From Candidatus Salinicoccus stercoripullorum (lineage in GTDB: Bacteria > Bacillota > Bacilli > Staphylococcales > Salinicoccaceae): 37,990 nucleotides of DNA. The notes under the pieces are model-generated. The model made no database searches, was not told the DNA's origin, and was given only the letters and a program-made list of their open reading frames with translations. Each line of letters starts with the position of its first letter. Within the stretch, counting starts at the first letter, position 1. The stretch covers positions 1-37,990 of the forward strand of contig DXHR01000027.1 of the NCBI GenBank assembly GCA_019113295.1. Direction: 5' to 3'. Shown piece after piece: positions 24,729-30,624 of this stretch. The position numbers and the translations under genes are program-made.

Positions 24729-25331
24729 TTAAAGCTTCCGCAATTTCGCTTGTATTACAGAGGCCATGCCGTTGTGCATCCGTCCTTCGTGCCGCTCGAC
24801 GGCCTTTTTCTCCAGATGGATGATTTCGACCGAGAGAGGTTCCAGATAATCTTTGATTTCGTCAATGGTGTAGAGCATGCTGATATCCGGTGGACCGCCT
24901 GTACCGTATTCCAGCTGATCGGTGGAGTACAGTTCGAAGACGATTGTGCCTCCCGGTTTTACACAGCCGGTGAGATTTGAAAACATCTGTGCTTTCCCGT
25001 CTTTTGGTACGTGGCCGAAAATGTTGACGCTGATATCATACACTTTATCAGGCAGGGCATCTCTGACAGTTATATCCTGCAGGTGTGTGTCGATGGCAAC
25101 ACCTTCCGAGCCGGCCAGCCGTTTTGTCTTTTCAATGCCTTCTTTTGAAAAATCGTAAGTAGTGATGTTGTTTCCGAGTTTGCCCAGATAGACGGCGTTA
25201 CGGCCTTCGCCTTCAGCGAGCAGTGCGATGCTTTTATCCCGTTCCGACCCAAGGGCGACCCGGACCCATTCGTTAGGTTCGACACCGTAGACATACTCAT
25301 CCGTCCTGAACTTCTCATCCCAATGATTCAT
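24729..25331 (-). CDS. Class I SAM-dependent methyltransferase (TehB-like)
   Basis: 200 residues. The N-terminus NHWDEKFRTDEYVYGVEPNEWV is typical of a small methyltransferase family annotated near tellurite-resistance TehB. SAM-binding motif I reads IALLAEGEGRNAVYLGKLG, then TYDFSKEGIEKTKRLA for motif II and LTGCVKPGGTIVFELY for the post-motif strand. The methyl acceptor is unknown. GGAGTG stands before the ATG. The gene is monocistronic and divergent from the sulfide operon; whether it acts on sulfur or chalcogen compounds is only a thought from position. Confidence 0.8.
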   Translation of the reverse strand: MNHWDEKFRTDEYVYGVEPNEWVRVALGSERDKSIALLAEGEGRNAVYLGKLGNNITTYDFSKEGIEKTKRLAGSEGVAIDTHLQDITVRDALPDKVYDISVNIFGHVPKDGKAQMFSNLTGCVKPGGTIVFELYSTDQLEYGTGGPPDISMLYTIDEIKDYLEPLSVEIIHLEKKAVERHEGRMHNGMASVIQAKLRKL

Positions 25332-25399
25332 CGTAACACTCCGTTCATTCTTATATTTCTGACATCATTGTAACGGTTATATTTGCAAATATCATCCTG

Positions 25400-25419
25400 A
25401 TATACCCACCGGCGTATAT
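25400..25419. promoter_or_regulatory. Operator-like dyad 1 upstream of the sulfide operon
   Basis: ATATACCCACCGGCGTATAT has perfect outer arms ATATAC and GTATAT around a GC-rich centre, the style of CsoR/CstR-family operators. No CstR gene lies in the window. Confidence 0.45.
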
Positions 25420-25445
25420 TGGGAAGAAGGCGGAGCGTTTCCTGG

Positions 25446-25462
25446 TGTCCCCTCCGGGGTAT
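25446..25462. promoter_or_regulatory. Operator-like dyad 2 upstream of the sulfide operon
   Basis: TGTCCCCTCCGGGGTAT holds CCCC and GGGG arms around TCC with a GGGGTAT end, again resembling CsoR/CstR-type sites. It ends 8 bp before the Shine-Dalgarno of the small leader ORF. Confidence 0.45.
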
Positions 25463-25482
25463 TAGAAATAAGGAGGTTTCCG

Positions 25483-25551
25483 ATGAACAATACTAAAACA
25501 GGGTATTATATCAATGATGCAGAAAACGGCAACCTGAATCTTTTTATTTAA
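25483..25551 (+). CDS. Putative 22-residue leader peptide of the sulfide operon
   Basis: A short ORF of 22 codons starts 5 nt after a near-perfect TAAGGAGGT (25469-25477). The peptide starts MNNTKTGYYIND and ends LNLFI, without Cys or a run of one amino acid. It lies between the operator-like dyads and cstB, 45 bp before the latter. The very strong ribosome binding site suggests that it is translated. It could be a regulatory leader, a small protein, or the decayed start of a lost gene such as cstA. I do not recognise it. Confidence 0.45.
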   Translation: MNNTKTGYYINDAENGNLNLFI

Positions 25552-25596
25552 TTAATAAGCGAAGCGGGATATTCAATAAGAAGGAGTGTATATAAA

Positions 25597-26958
25597 ATGT
25601 TCTTCAAGCAATTTTTCGATAAGAAGCTTGCGCAGACATCCTATATGGTCGCCTGCCAGAAAACAAAAGAGGCAATCCTCATCGATCCGAAACGTGTCCT
25701 TGATGAATACGCGGAAGTGGCCAATGCAGAAGGTTTCGACATCACACATATCGCTGAGACGCATATCCATGCGGATTTTGCTTCCGGACTGCGTGATGCT
25801 GCCAAGCGCTTCAATGCGACGGCGTATGTCTCCGACGAAGGTGATGAGGACTGGAAATATGAGAACATGCCTGAAAATACCGTGTACCTGAAAGATGGTG
25901 GGGTCATCAATGTCGGCAATGTCGAATTGAAAGTCATCCACACCCCGGGCCACACGCCGGAAAGCATTTCCTTTATATTGACAGACCGCGGAGCAGGAAG
26001 CGATGAACCGATGGGTATATTCACAGGGGATTTCCTCTTTGTCGGTGACATCGGGCGTCCGGATCTGCTTGAAGAGACGGCACAGATGGAAGGCACGACG
26101 GAAGAAGGCGCAGAAGCGATGTTCGATTCATTGAAGAAAATGAATCAATATCCGGAATTCATGCAGGTCTGGCCCGGTCATGGTGCCGGCAGTGCATGCG
26201 GCAAGTCGCTCGGTGCAGTCCCGCTTTCCACAGTGGGCTATGAGCTGAGGAACAATTGGGTATTCAACTACGATGATAAGGATGCCTTCATCAAAGAATT
26301 GACAAGTGACCAGCCGGAACCGCCAAGCTATTTCGCACAGATGAAGAAAGTCAACAGGGAAGGACTGCTCGAGTTCAAAGTGAAGGATATCGAGGTGGGC
26401 ACCCCTCAGGAAATCCCGGGCCAGCTGTTCGATCTCAGAAGCAAAGAGGAATTCAAAAAAGGATTCAAAAACGGTGCGGTAAATATTCCTTACAATGATA
26501 AGTTCCTCCAGTTTGCAGGGTGGTATATTGATTATGATCAGCCGATGACAGTCATTGCCGATCCTAAAGACAGCAGGACGCTCCAGGAGGATCTCGCATC
26601 CATCGGTTATGATAAGCTGCAGCTGATTATACCGATCGAGAAGGCGGAACAGTATTTCGACGATGCATACGAAAATGTATCTGCGGAGGAGTTCGTTAGC
26701 AATTTTGAGGACAAAAATATTCTCGATGTCCGTTCCGTTTCAGAATATAACAGCGGGAGCCTGGAAAATGCGCATCATCTGCATTTCGGCCAGCTTGATG
26801 AAAAAGAAGTGCCGTTCGACCGGGACGATACGGTTTATGTGCATTGCCAGTCCGGTGTCCGTTCAGCAATCGCAATGAGTGCACTCAAAGCACGCGGATA
26901 CGAAAATGTAGTAAATATCAAGGATGGCTACGCGGGCATCACCCAAGTGATGCAGTAA
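25597..26958 (+). CDS. cstB: CstB: persulfide dioxygenase-sulfurtransferase
   Basis: 453 residues in three parts, as in S. aureus CstB. The metallo-beta-lactamase-fold non-heme iron dioxygenase (about 1-230) shows H56-x-H58-x-D60 in [15 protein letters not shown] and [11 protein letters not shown] pseudo-rhodanese without active Cys follows (about 260-350; MTVIADPKD where the Cys loop should be). The C-terminal rhodanese has Cys417 in VHCQSGVRS. Cys201 (SACGKSLG) stands at the same number as the dioxygenase-domain Cys of the S. aureus protein, as I recall it. CstB oxidises low-molecular-weight persulfides and makes thiosulfate in the cytoplasm. AAGGAG precedes the ATG. The stop overlaps the TauE start by one base. 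Confidence 0.93.
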
Positions 26959-27737
26959 TGGATATTGCAGCGATCATTGTCATATTCCTGATCGGTTTTG
27001 TCGGATCTTTCGTTTCTGGAATGGTGGGCATAGGGGGATCGATCATCAAGTTCCCTATGCTGCTCTACATCCCTGCATTACTCGGTGTCGCTGCATTCAC
27101 CTCCCATGAAGTATCGGGAATCAGTGCTGTGCAGGTGTTTTTTGCAACAATAGGAGGAGTCTGGGCGTATAAGGACAGCGGTTATCTGAACGTGAAGCTG
27201 ATCGGCTACATGGGGAGTGCGATACTTCTCGGAAGCCTTGTCGGCGGATATGGTTCCAGATTTCTTACCGAGCCCCAGATTGATGTCGTCTATGCCGTGC
27301 TCGCTGCAATCGCTGCAATCATGATGTTCGTCCCCAAGAAGGAAGTACCCTTTACAGAAGGTGATGAACTTCATTTCAACAGGACACTTGCGTCGTCACT
27401 TGCCTTCGTGACAGGCGCTGCCGCCGGCATAGTTGGTGCCGCTGGTGCCTTCATACTGGTACCAATCATGCTGGTGATCCTTAAAATTCCGACACGGGTG
27501 ACGATTGCGACCAGTCTGGCGGTGACACTGATTTCCTCCATCGGTACAACCATTGGAAAAGTGGTGACAGACCAGGTGCTCTATGGGCCGGCAGTCATCA
27601 TGATCATAGCGAGCCTCATAGCGGCCCACCTCGGGGCAAAAGCAGGACAGCACATGAATACCAAGATCCTCCAGTGGATTCTGGCGGTGCTGATACTGGC
27701 GACAGCCGTTAAAATATGGGGAGAGATCCTATTGTAA
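26958..27737 (+). CDS. tauE: TauE/SafE-family sulfur-anion exporter
   Basis: 259 residues with about eight hydrophobic segments. [37 protein letters not shown] and the second-half repeat [34 protein letters not shown] are the two G-G/G-A-rich halves of the TauE/SafE family. In staphylococci this gene accompanies cstB and is thought to export sulfite or thiosulfate. Its ATG overlaps the cstB stop (TAATG), so the two are translationally coupled. The frame is open upstream into cstB, but that part is out of family and unlikely to be used. Confidence 0.9.
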
Positions 27738-27789
27738 TGCAGCAGCGCTCCAGAGAAAGGAGGGCGATCCTTTTCAGAAGCTCCACGGA

Positions 27790-27820
27790 TTAGTTTACTA
27801 ACGTCATTTCTGGTTATAAT
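27790..27820 (+). promoter_or_regulatory. Candidate promoter and dyad for sqr
   Basis: A perfect TATAAT (27815-27820) lies 34 bp before the sqr ATG, with no good -35. The dyad TTAGT-TT-ACTAA (27790-27801) lies over the -35 position and may be an operator. It suggests sqr is controlled apart from cstB-tauE. Confidence 0.45.
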
Positions 27821-27854
27821 ATTCATAATGATAAATGCGGAAGAGGTGTATCAA

Positions 27855-29042
27855 ATGAATTTTCACGAAGTTCTGGTAGTAGGCGGCGGGACTGCAGGAA
27901 TAACGGTAGCTTCACGTCTCAAACGCATATCCGAGTATATCGACCTGGCCATCATTGATCCGGCAGACAATCATTATTATCAGCCATTATGGACACTTGT
28001 AGGCGGCGGGGTCGTTGATAAGGAAGCCTCGCAGCGCTCTGAAGCTTCACTGATTCCGAAAGGTGTCAAATGGTACAAAGAATCAGCGGAATCATTCAAA
28101 CCGGAAGAAAATAAAGTGACAACTTCGGAAGGCACCGAAATAAGGTATAAATATCTCGTCGTATGTCCGGGTTTGCAGCTTGATTGGGATAAAATAGAAG
28201 GTTTGGATGGAAACGTGGGGAAATATGGCATATGCAGCAACTATTCGTATGACCACGTGGATTACACATGGGAAACGATACGGTCTTTCCAGGGCGGCCG
28301 TGCGATATTTACTCATCCCAATTCTCCAATCAAATGTGGGGGCGCCCCCCAGAAAATCATGTATCTGGCAGATGAGGCATTCCGGGAGCAGGGGGTCCGT
28401 GACCAGGCGGAGATCCATTTCAAATCCGCAAACGGGACGGTATTCCAAGTTAAAAAATATGCTGATGCCCTTGATGATGTCATAGATAGAAAGCAGATCA
28501 GGGCAGATTATAACAAAGATCTGATCAAAATTGACGGGCCAAATAAAAAGGCGGTTTTCAAAGACTTGAACAGTGGTGATGAAGAAACGGTGGACTATGA
28601 TATGATCCATGTGGTTCCCTATATGAGCGCGCCTGATTTTATTAAAAGAAGTCCTCTGTCCAATGCTGATGGATGGGTCGACGTGGATCCCCATACCCTC
28701 CAGCATAACGAATACAAGAATGTTTTCAGCCTTGGAGATGTTTCAAGTGCGCCCACTTCGAAAACAGGTGCAGCGGTTCGCAAGCAGGCACCGGTAGTGG
28801 TATCACATATCAAATCAATGCTGAAAGGCGGGGAACAGTCTTCCCGCAGGTATGATGGATATACTTCATGTCCGCTTGTCACCGGCTATAACTCCCTGAT
28901 AATGGCGGAATTCAAGTATGACAATGTACCATCGGAAACTTTCCCGGTCAATCAGGCGAAAGAAAGAAAAAGTATGTATATGATGAAAAAATTCGGCCTT
29001 CCTGCGATGTACTGGCATGGGATGATGAAAGGCCGTATGTAA
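27855..29042 (+). CDS. sqr: Sulfide:quinone oxidoreductase (type II-like)
   Basis: 395 residues, a flavoprotein that oxidises sulfide to a persulfide or polysulfide and reduces membrane quinone. The FAD-binding motif VLVVGGGTAGITVASRL is at the N-terminus; NHYYQPLWTLVGGG, YLVVCPGLQLDWDKIEGL and FSLGDVSSAPTSKTGAAVRKQAPVV follow in the order usual for SQR. The redox cysteines are Cys161 in SPIKCGGAPQK and Cys339 in YTSCPLVTGYN. The C-terminus (YMMKKFGLPAMYWHGMMKG) would make the amphipathic membrane contact. GAGGTG precedes the ATG at 27855; an earlier in-frame ATG at 27828 falls before it. The gene lies about 115 bp after tauE with a candidate promoter of its own. Confidence 0.92.
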   Translation: MNFHEVLVVGGGTAGITVASRLKRISEYIDLAIIDPADNHYYQPLWTLVGGGVVDKEASQRSEASLIPKGVKWYKESAESFKPEENKVTTSEGTEIRYKYLVVCPGLQLDWDKIEGLDGNVGKYGICSNYSYDHVDYTWETIRSFQGGRAIFTHPNSPIKCGGAPQKIMYLADEAFREQGVRDQAEIHFKSANGTVFQVKKYADALDDVIDRKQIRADYNKDLIKIDGPNKKAVFKDLNSGDEETVDYDMIHVVPYMSAPDFIKRSPLSNADGWVDVDPHTLQHNEYKNVFSLGDVSSAPTSKTGAAVRKQAPVVVSHIKSMLKGGEQSSRRYDGYTSCPLVTGYNSLIMAEFKYDNVPSETFPVNQAKERKSMYMMKKFGLPAMYWHGMMKGRM

Positions 29043-29109
29043 TTTTAGAAATTTCCGGAGCTGGGACAAAAGTCCTCGGAAGATAATATATTTAATGAAT
29101 TATAGATAA

Positions 29110-29165
29110 AATCCGTACGTCATACTCCCGGACGACCCGGGGAAGCTGACGTACGGATTATTTTT
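29110..29165. terminator. Terminator between sqr and tsdA
   Basis: AATCCGTACGTCA (29110-29122) pairs perfectly with TGACGTACGGATT (29147-29159), with T runs on the plus strand (29161-29165) and a U-rich stretch on the minus strand, so it can serve both convergent genes. Confidence 0.8.
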
Positions 29166-29219
29166 CTGAAGGATACTTATGTCCCGTTCCTTTTTATTTC
29201 GTGAAGACCAAAAAGGGGG

Positions 29220-30095
29220 TCATTCTGAATTTTCCACTCTCTCTAATTCTTCCCATTCAAATATATTTTCTTTTATGGCTTCACGCTCTTTTTCAGTGAT
29301 GTAGTCATCAGGTTTCCCTCCGTCAGGAAATCTGTTTTCTCCTTGAAATTCAGGACGCTCATGTGAAAGGACATAGGCTGCAAGATCCGCAGCTTCTTGA
29401 TCATTCAGCGTTCCTCCTTCCCCAAGAGGCATATTCTTTTTAATGAAATCCTGCATGTCAGAAAATCTGCTCATTCCAGCACCATCGTTGAAAGAATTTT
29501 TCCCCCATAAATCCGGTCCGCTGTATGCGGCCTCAGGTCCACTTTTTCCATGACAGGAGATACAATTGTTCCTTTCGAACAATTCTGCACCACGCTCTAC
29601 ATCCGGCACAGGAATATTTTCCCCTTTGTTTTCCTCAGTCATGAAATCGTATTGATCACCGGATTCAACCTCATCACTCAGGAATTTCAGATAGGCGAGG
29701 AACGCGTCCATTTCCTCACTTTCCGGATCTATTGGTTCTCCATTCATACTGCGTGCAAAACACCCGTTTACACGCTCAGATAAAGATATCTCTCTACCTT
29801 CCCGCTTACTGTGTTGCGGAAATTTTTTGTCTACACCGATCAGAGTCAGAGCATCTCCCCGTCCGGCACCAGCATGACAACTGACACAGCTTAAGTTATT
29901 TCTGACATTTTCAGGCAATGCTGTATTTGTATGAGTCATCAGTGTCTGGCCTTGCTTTATCTTTTCTTGCTCTTCTTGGCTGTATTCATCAAGTGATGGA
30001 ATTAAAGAAGATTTATCGACTTCTTGTTTTCCTGCGTCCTGTGAACATGCAGACAGTGTTAAACTCAAAAGTAAAAGAAAGAATAATTTTCTCAA
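29220..30095 (-). CDS. tsdA: Diheme c-type cytochrome lipoprotein, TsdA-like thiosulfate dehydrogenase
   Basis: 291 residues. The signal peptide MRKLFFLLLLSLTLSAC ends in a lipobox with Cys17, so the protein is anchored on the outer face of the membrane. Two heme c sites are C70-V-S-C-H74 and C178-I-S-C-H182. Between them ERVNGCFARSMNG carries Cys112, the counterpart of the unusual Cys axial ligand of TsdA; KKNMPLGEGG carries Met222, a likely ligand for heme 2. TsdA joins two thiosulfates to tetrathionate. The start is TTG at 30095 with AGGAGG 8 nt upstream. A generic diheme cytochrome is the alternative. The base composition is lower in GC than the sulfide operon it faces. Confidence 0.8.
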   Translation of the reverse strand: MRKLFFLLLLSLTLSACSQDAGKQEVDKSSLIPSLDEYSQEEQEKIKQGQTLMTHTNTALPENVRNNLSCVSCHAGAGRGDALTLIGVDKKFPQHSKREGREISLSERVNGCFARSMNGEPIDPESEEMDAFLAYLKFLSDEVESGDQYDFMTEENKGENIPVPDVERGAELFERNNCISCHGKSGPEAAYSGPDLWGKNSFNDGAGMSRFSDMQDFIKKNMPLGEGGTLNDQEAADLAAYVLSHERPEFQGENRFPDGGKPDDYITEKEREAIKENIFEWEELERVENSE

Positions 30096-30333: not shown

Positions 30334-30624
30334 TTATTGGAAATATAAGGGGAATTCCAGCGTTCCGGGTATTTCCGGGATTTTCTGAGACGACAATGGG
30401 AAAAGAAGATTTCTTGATGTCTGGCTGTATAGATTCTGTATTGAATTTAATGACTGTTCTAACTCCGCGATGATATCGTCAGCGTCTTCCAGCCCCAGGG
30501 ATAAATGTATTAAGCCTTTGGTAATAACAATGTTCATCAGCCTGTCTTCTGTAATGGAAGAGTGAGTCATTGATAAGGAATGCTGAGCTAATGTTTCGGA
30601 AGCACCCAGACTGGTATCAAAATA
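30334..30624 (-). pseudogene. Remnant of a cystathionine/methionine gamma-lyase-type PLP enzyme
   Basis: The minus-strand frame reads YFDTSLGASETLAQHSLSMTHSSITEDRL and then GLIHLSLGLEDADDIIAELEQSLN. This is the C-terminal end of the Cys/Met-metabolism PLP-enzyme family (compare S-L-G-x-x-E-(S/T)-L, M-T-H-(A/S)-S-(I/V), I-R-L-S-x-G-L-E-D). A stop codon at 30625-30627 cuts it off at the 5' side, and the lysine-bearing catalytic part is gone. After about residue 65 the frame reads into unrelated sequence. Only about 60-70 of some 380 residues remain, so it is not functional. Confidence 0.8.

Follow-up and report, generated by a model that had tools for sequence, protein, structure and literature searches.

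A TsdA-type dihaem cytochrome gene facing a sulfide-oxidation module in Candidatus Salinicoccus stercoripullorum: a probable route from sulfide to tetrathionate

In a stretch of 37,990 nucleotides from Candidatus Salinicoccus stercoripullorum (contig DXHR01000027.1, positions 1 to 37,990; hereafter the window), the genes for a CstB-like persulfide dioxygenase (PDO), a putative TauE/SafE family exporter and a sulfide:quinone oxidoreductase (SQR) face a gene, tsdA, for a dihaem lipoprotein of the thiosulfate dehydrogenase (TsdA) type. The locus is probably, in a judgement of moderate confidence, a sulfide oxidation module with an added extracytoplasmic thiosulfate step, leading from sulfide via persulfide and thiosulfate to tetrathionate. 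Sequence comparison supports the four identities, the haem motifs and lipobox of TsdA, the maturation and acceptor genes of the genome, an empty tsdA site in two relatives and a recurrent linkage of tsdA to persulfide-oxidation genes. The four open reading frames are intact and run where an earlier, sequence-only reading of the same DNA had placed them. The features of the locus are the following.

25597-26958, forward strand: CstB-like persulfide dioxygenase-rhodanese fusion, 453 amino acids (PF00753 and PF00581)
26958-27737, forward strand: putative TauE/SafE family exporter, 259 amino acids (PF01925, 147.6 bits)
27828-29042, forward strand: SQR of the mitochondrial (SQOR) type, 404 amino acids (PDB 6mp5, 425 bits)
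29220-30095, reverse strand: TsdA-type dihaem cytochrome c lipoprotein, 291 amino acids (PF21342, 45.4 bits; cut-off 27)
29110-29159: hairpin at the point where sqr and tsdA converge, possible two-way terminator (RNA fold -35 kcal/mol, z -5.3)
25402-25417 and 25447-25462, forward strand: two CsoR/CstR-type operator-like palindromes (ATACCCN4GGGTAT, with 1 and 2 mismatches)
25483-25551, forward strand: cstA remnant (start, 22 codons, stop)
24729-25331, reverse strand: TehB-like S-adenosylmethionine methyltransferase flanking the cst genes (PF03848, 33.7 bits; cut-off 20.4)

By sequence and predicted fold, the dihaem lipoprotein passes as a TsdA. It carries two CxxCH motifs, CVSCH (C70/C73/H74) and CISCH (C178/C181/H182), together with an NGCFARSMNG element containing Cys112, which aligns with the cysteine of the PDB TsdA chain, and Met222, the counterpart of the haem-2 methionine that is termed strictly conserved in TsdA (PMC5146829; statements on published work refer to the accessible parts of the articles cited). 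The gene has a TTG start preceded by AGGAGGAG, and its product has a signal sequence with the lipobox LTLSAC, read by eye. The best PDB matches in phmmer were thiosulfate dehydrogenases (E 1.1e-36), and a profile of 18 sequences scored TsdA at 218 bits and SoxA at 58 bits; among the NCBIfam models none exceeded its cut-off for this protein, SoxA reaching 32.5 of 110 bits. With an AlphaFold model (mean pLDDT 84), the first nine Foldseek matches were TsdA chains (E 2e-16 to 6e-12), followed by SoxA at 1e-2. All 41 TsdA sequences compared, called in 39 loci (the fetched loci L067 and L083 yielded no called gene), share both CxxCH motifs, Cys112, Arg98, Arg108, Arg115, Ser116 and Met222. An identity as SoxA or as a plain cytochrome c was rejected on profile and fold. 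The sequence-only reading had recognized the TsdA pattern of a dihaem lipoprotein in the two CxxCH motifs, Cys112 and Met222, and had named a placement away from TsdA as grounds for giving it up; the pattern holds, and no such placement was seen. Tandem tsdA copies occur in loci L066 and L085, and Neobacillus kokaensis has three tsdA loci in one genome (L160, L201 and L211).

The three genes facing tsdA are equally recognizable. CstB finds its top PDB match in 3r2u (492 bits over residues 1-448) and, in comparison with that entry, retains the motifs GSACGK and VHCQSG, whose cysteines we take to be functional; it combines a dioxygenase domain fused to a rhodanese with two cysteine motifs, and its best copies in 11 searched genus relatives are 82-86% identical. 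The start of tauE overlaps the stop codon of cstB. SQR, the top PDB match of which is mitochondrial SQOR, is a flavoprotein sequence in which both cysteine motifs, KCGGAP and TSCPLVTGY, are retained, their cysteines being presumably the catalytic ones. As sqr and tsdA converge on a strong hairpin, tsdA is probably a transcription unit of its own; the hairpin is absent from the list of a simple terminator scan.

The sequence-only reading had seen in these genes the staphylococcal sulfide detoxification set, and this stands for CstB, TauE and SQR, whereas CstR is absent and most of CstA is deleted, neither gene having been found elsewhere in the genome. In Staphylococcus aureus, CstR represses cstA, cstB and sqr, and the system takes sulfide to thiosulfate (PMC5480029). 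In two relatives of the window's species, G008 and G010, the order of the locus is methyltransferase, cstR, cstA, cstB, tauE, sqr and AbgT, with the domains of CstR and CstA confirmed in G010. The window, aligned to both, has gaps of about 0.4 kb, which holds cstR, and about 1.0 kb, which holds most of cstA; both deletions fall within window 25331-25597, the first gap beginning or ending where the first palindrome ends, and a short cstA remnant is left, with no full-length CstA found in the window's genome. The number of palindromes alone is not significant (chance mean 0.99 per window, with 24 of 100 shuffles reaching two), and the argument for them is their position, which in the alignment corresponds to the surroundings of cstR in G008 and G010. 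A single CsoR-family gene was found in the genome, compared with two each in G002 (of the same genus), G008 and G010. Judged from these comparisons, the cst module has probably lost its repressor.

Genes for cytochrome c maturation, the absence of which would have spoken against the earlier proposal, are present in the window's genome: ResB is adjoined by CcsB (236.5 bits; cut-off 187.6) and ResA (177.7 bits; cut-off 170). ResB was found in 45 of the 100 searched genomes, the window's included (44 above the cut-off, with none above it in genus g8); of the five genomes in this set that carry tsdA, G018 (93% complete) is the one without ResB. Six proteins of the genome match PF13442: TsdA itself, CtaC with a CxxCH of its own (CoxB model, 162.7 bits; cut-off 147.7), two c550-like proteins, one c551-like lipoprotein and one protein of the cytochrome b/c type, the c550-like and c551-like matches lying under the NCBIfam cut-offs. 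The possible electron acceptors include a caa3 oxidase, and the Em of +198 mV for the thiosulfate/tetrathionate couple (PMC6879331) suits cytochrome c and caa3 in this role.

In the proposed pathway, SQR would convert sulfide to a low-molecular-weight persulfide with reduction of quinone, and CstB, an enzyme known to yield thiosulfate (PMC9774590), would oxidize the persulfide and form thiosulfate in the cytoplasm. TauE, termed a putative sulfonate/thiosulfate effluxer in S. aureus (PMC5480029), would probably export thiosulfate or sulfite, and the lipid-anchored TsdA would then couple two molecules of thiosulfate to tetrathionate at haem 1, which has Cys112 as ligand, the two electrons passing via haem 2, with its ligand Met222, to a small cytochrome c and on to the caa3 oxidase. 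The export, the direction, the acceptor and a benefit to the cell are what we infer from this set of genes, and the direction is taken from context and not from residues. The further suggestion of the sequence-only reading, that TsdA would turn detoxification into an energy-yielding process, was overdrawn: electrons already reach quinone from SQR, and what TsdA would add is a second entry point for them, at the level of cytochrome c.

The position of tsdA, between sqr and AbgT, is empty in G008 and G010. Its GC content at third codon positions (GC3), 0.342, is the lowest of the 36 called genes of the window; the next-lowest, 0.368, belongs to a gene in a low-GC stretch at the window start, and the genes at 17.7-29.0 kb and 31.0-36.5 kb have values of 0.46 to 0.73. 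The window TsdA is 57% identical to that of G002, compared with 83% for CstB of the same genome and 89% for ResB of another genus member, G005, and vertical descent of tsdA within the genus was accordingly judged unlikely. The empty site, the low GC3 and the 57% identity together point to a recent horizontal insertion, by which tsdA was probably acquired and placed next to the operon.

A pairing conserved within the genus or family is ruled out by the four other tsdA-bearing relatives, which lack it. Across the class, tsdA was found in 42 of 398 genomes and 20 of 146 genera, and 36 neighbourhoods were fetched for the 41 genomes other than the window's, the five left out belonging to genus g35; CstB, a dioxygenase or TauE (at least 60% identity) lies near tsdA in six of the 36. 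When genome contigs were scanned with a single sequence no relative was found, and a scan with an alignment did find relatives, the best 80 of 575 being kept as the named loci: eight of 44 Bacillota loci (six of them Lysinibacillus) are linked, versus none of 36 others. In four loci of the class the TsdA core is the same as in a named Bacillota record, and on this ground, together with the place of the window TsdA among Bacillota in the tree described below, the class is read as Bacilli. Five Lysinibacillus species carry on one strand, in this order and with tsdA as the last, the genes for CstR, two rhodaneses, TusA-rhodanese, DsrE, dioxygenase-rhodanese, TusA, TauE, DsbA and TsdA (TusA was not called in one species, and the domains were checked in locus L057), and in six species of this genus the TauE encoded near tsdA is 65-71% identical to that of the window; in Lysinibacillus odysseyi the sulfur-oxidation set lies 4 to 10 kb from tsdA. 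In Bacillus canaveralius a comparable set precedes tsdA on the same strand at a distance of 2.7 kb, in which other genes were called, and in Pontibacillus litoralis the genes for TauE and TusA and one that matches CstA lie 3.7 to 5.3 kb from tsdA, with no dioxygenase within its cut stretch. In genus g55, SQR and CstB lie within 8 kb of tsdA in two genomes and are missing there in a third (L080).

Among the matches listed, a persulfide dioxygenase gene of the CstB or YrkH type (E thresholds 1e-25 and 1e-20, respectively) lies at most 10 kb from tsdA in seven of 45 genomes, where 0.48 would be expected (Poisson 8e-7, with the window's genome excluded and in a statistic that ignores kinship). Among the same matches, a gene of either type occurs in 41 of 42 tsdA genomes versus 213 of 356 without tsdA, and the CstB type alone in 27 of 42 versus 114 of 356. 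In a tree from a quick search without bootstrap (121 tsdA loci, giving 111 usable rows and, after five identical ones were dropped, 106), a single branch (support 99) separates the 27 rows from other phyla, and the window TsdA groups with the four other sequences of its order (99), among Bacillota. The label 'linked', carried by 15 rows, requires seven changes, at least six of them being forced by well-supported branches; G109, linked only by the 10-kb test, was entered as unlinked. Repeated gain of the linkage seems the simplest reading of this tree, and some of the changes may be losses. The sequence-only reading had called for a survey of tsdA beside cstB in Firmicutes; the pairing recurs in several Bacillota and is not shared by the four tsdA-bearing relatives. 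The linkage of tsdA with persulfide-oxidation genes is probably not chance. Record L186 bears the title Pseudomonas sp. ISL-84; its TsdA is placed within the Bacilli clade and was counted with Bacilli, and a mislabelled genome or a transfer is perhaps the reason.

Several of the data weigh against the proposed pathway. The tsdA gene is convergent to the cst genes and outside their transcript. After a sulfide spike in sediment of the Bohai Sea, the level of tsdA transcripts showed no increase and went down (PMC12345210). It was found in five of the 100 searched relatives, the window's genome included, and none of the other four has a cst gene in the fetched 6.9 to 19.5 kb, the sole exception being a TauE-family gene of 23% identity in L020. 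In G002 and G090 the CstB gene is on a contig other than that of tsdA, in G033 the two are 77 kb apart, and in G018 no match to CstB, SQR or the YrkH type passed the thresholds. Taken alone, these relatives argue for chance. In the class, 30 of the 36 fetched loci have no CstB, PDO or close TauE in their stretch (one of the 30, G109, has a dioxygenase gene 9.7 kb from tsdA); the tests of linkage and co-occurrence treat genomes as independent, and counted by genus the linkage is weaker, with four of 23 genera where 0.36 to 0.89 would be expected (P 0.0005 to 0.013, assuming two or three dioxygenase genes per genome). An alternative is a TsdA that acts on outside thiosulfate or tetrathionate independently of Cst, the adjacency being a chance result of horizontal insertion, and the lowest GC3 of the window, the empty site in G008 and G010, the other positions of tsdA in other relatives and the lack of CstB and SQR matches in G018 are all in its favour. 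We nevertheless regard this explanation as unlikely, since linkage and co-occurrence recur in several lineages and the genes follow one another on one strand in Lysinibacillus and, across an interval of 2.7 kb, in Bacillus canaveralius.

The direction of catalysis may also be argued the other way. The window's K219-x-N221-M222 corresponds to K252-x-N254-M255 of the reduction-biased TsdA of Campylobacter jejuni (CjTsdA), a correspondence obtained by counting back from the methionine, the C. jejuni sequence itself not being aligned. Position 221 in the 41 sequences is N in 33, Y in seven, S in one and K in none, so that the lysine of the Allochromatium vinosum enzyme is missing throughout; in the window, an A. 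vinosum-type lysine ligand at haem 2 is ruled out by Asn221. CjTsdA is a physiological tetrathionate reductase (PMC5146829), and TsdA is bidirectional (PMC6879331). A true TsdA that mainly reduces tetrathionate, as an electron sink or for detoxification, with the cst adjacency reflecting a common sulfur niche, would fit these facts. It is, however, an improbable account of this locus: the product of the neighbouring CstB is thiosulfate, on which TsdA would act as an oxidant, the genome encodes a caa3 oxidase, CjTsdA oxidizes thiosulfate too (PMC6879331), and the haem-2 residue is not diagnostic, the N254K exchange having failed to make CjTsdA oxidative (PMC5146829). A cytochrome of the SoxA/TsdA family with another substrate, or with an electron-shuttle role only, is very improbable; the accessible parts of the cited literature report no activity for any Bacilli member, but the cysteine ligand position, the three arginines and Ser116 are invariant, and TsdA is well ahead of SoxA by both profile and fold. 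A wider proposition, on which we find the case for and against evenly balanced, is that Bacilli possess an unrecognized pathway from sulfide to tetrathionate, TsdA having been drawn repeatedly into CstR/YrkD-type persulfide-oxidation modules as their outer step, with electrons entering at quinone through SQR and at cytochrome c through TsdA, and that in the window's species this pathway is constitutive by loss of cstR.

Other genes near tsdA or the cst genes may be mentioned. The TehB-like methyltransferase is also a neighbour of the cst genes in G008 and G010 and lies near tsdA in G033 (L017 12999-13604) and G203 (L068 8273-8926); it possibly acts on sulfide or a thiol. In L066 (9455-13675, domains checked there only) tsdA has as neighbours the genes for a response regulator of the sigma-54 type, a histidine kinase with a dCache domain and a lipoprotein of the ABC_sub_bind family, as it has in L069-L073, L075-L077, L166, L173, L175 and L188; together they are a possible thiosulfate or tetrathionate sensor. 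CcdA-like, OsmC, membrane and TlpA-like genes accompany tsdA in L079 (3367-7452), L081, L174 and L089 (6090-7251), joined in L079 and L081 by SQR and CstB; in G002, where tsdA lies elsewhere, the cst genes are adjoined by a membrane and TlpA-like pair. An open reading frame of 78 amino acids beside tsdA (30334-30570, reverse strand) is probably a gene remnant, the surrounding stretch being 35% identical over 63 amino acids to the end of L089_4, which we take to resemble a pyridoxal phosphate-dependent transsulfuration enzyme.

In conclusion, this study describes a probable extension of a Cst-type sulfide module to tetrathionate, and the similar pairing in several Gram-positive groups suggests, at the level of gene content, a shared way of using sulfide. 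If so, sulfide detoxification would be tied to tetrathionate formation in Gram-positive heterotrophs, and a possible environmental source of tetrathionate could be traced to named genes; if TauE feeds TsdA, tetrathionate output would report thiosulfate export and so test the substrate of TauE. The sequence-only reading knew of no described case in this bacterial family, and in the literature searched, which most subscription papers lay outside, we likewise found no description of a tsdA-cst linkage in Gram-positives.

Among known systems, Pseudomonas putida S16 and Pseudomonas aeruginosa PAO1 convert sulfide to tetrathionate, for which the authors infer TsdA (PMC6245092); the chemical route, with SQR and PDO, is the same, in Gram-negative organisms and with no genetic linkage described in the accessible parts of that article, which counts TsdA in 11 Bacilli genomes. 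Halomonas titanicae has tsdA and oxidizes thiosulfate to tetrathionate (PMC9237845). The TsdA proteins of A. vinosum and C. jejuni share with that of the window the two CxxCH motifs, the haem-1 cysteine, the haem-2 methionine and the fold; the window protein differs in being a Gram-positive lipoprotein with no second cytochrome gene directly adjoining in the window, and in having Asn where A. vinosum TsdA has Lys before the haem-2 methionine. The yrk-nreBC-sqr-pdo cluster of Bacillus licheniformis (PMC9918477) has a CsoR-type repressor, DsrE, TusA, rhodanese, dioxygenase and TauE as in the Lysinibacillus loci, and the main text of that article has no match for either tsdA or tetrathionate. The cst system of S. 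aureus (CstR, TauE, CstA, CstB and SQR; PMC5480029) resembles the window in bringing together CstB, TauE and SQR with operator-like sites, whereas the window is without cstR and cstA, places tauE between cstB and sqr, and adds tsdA.

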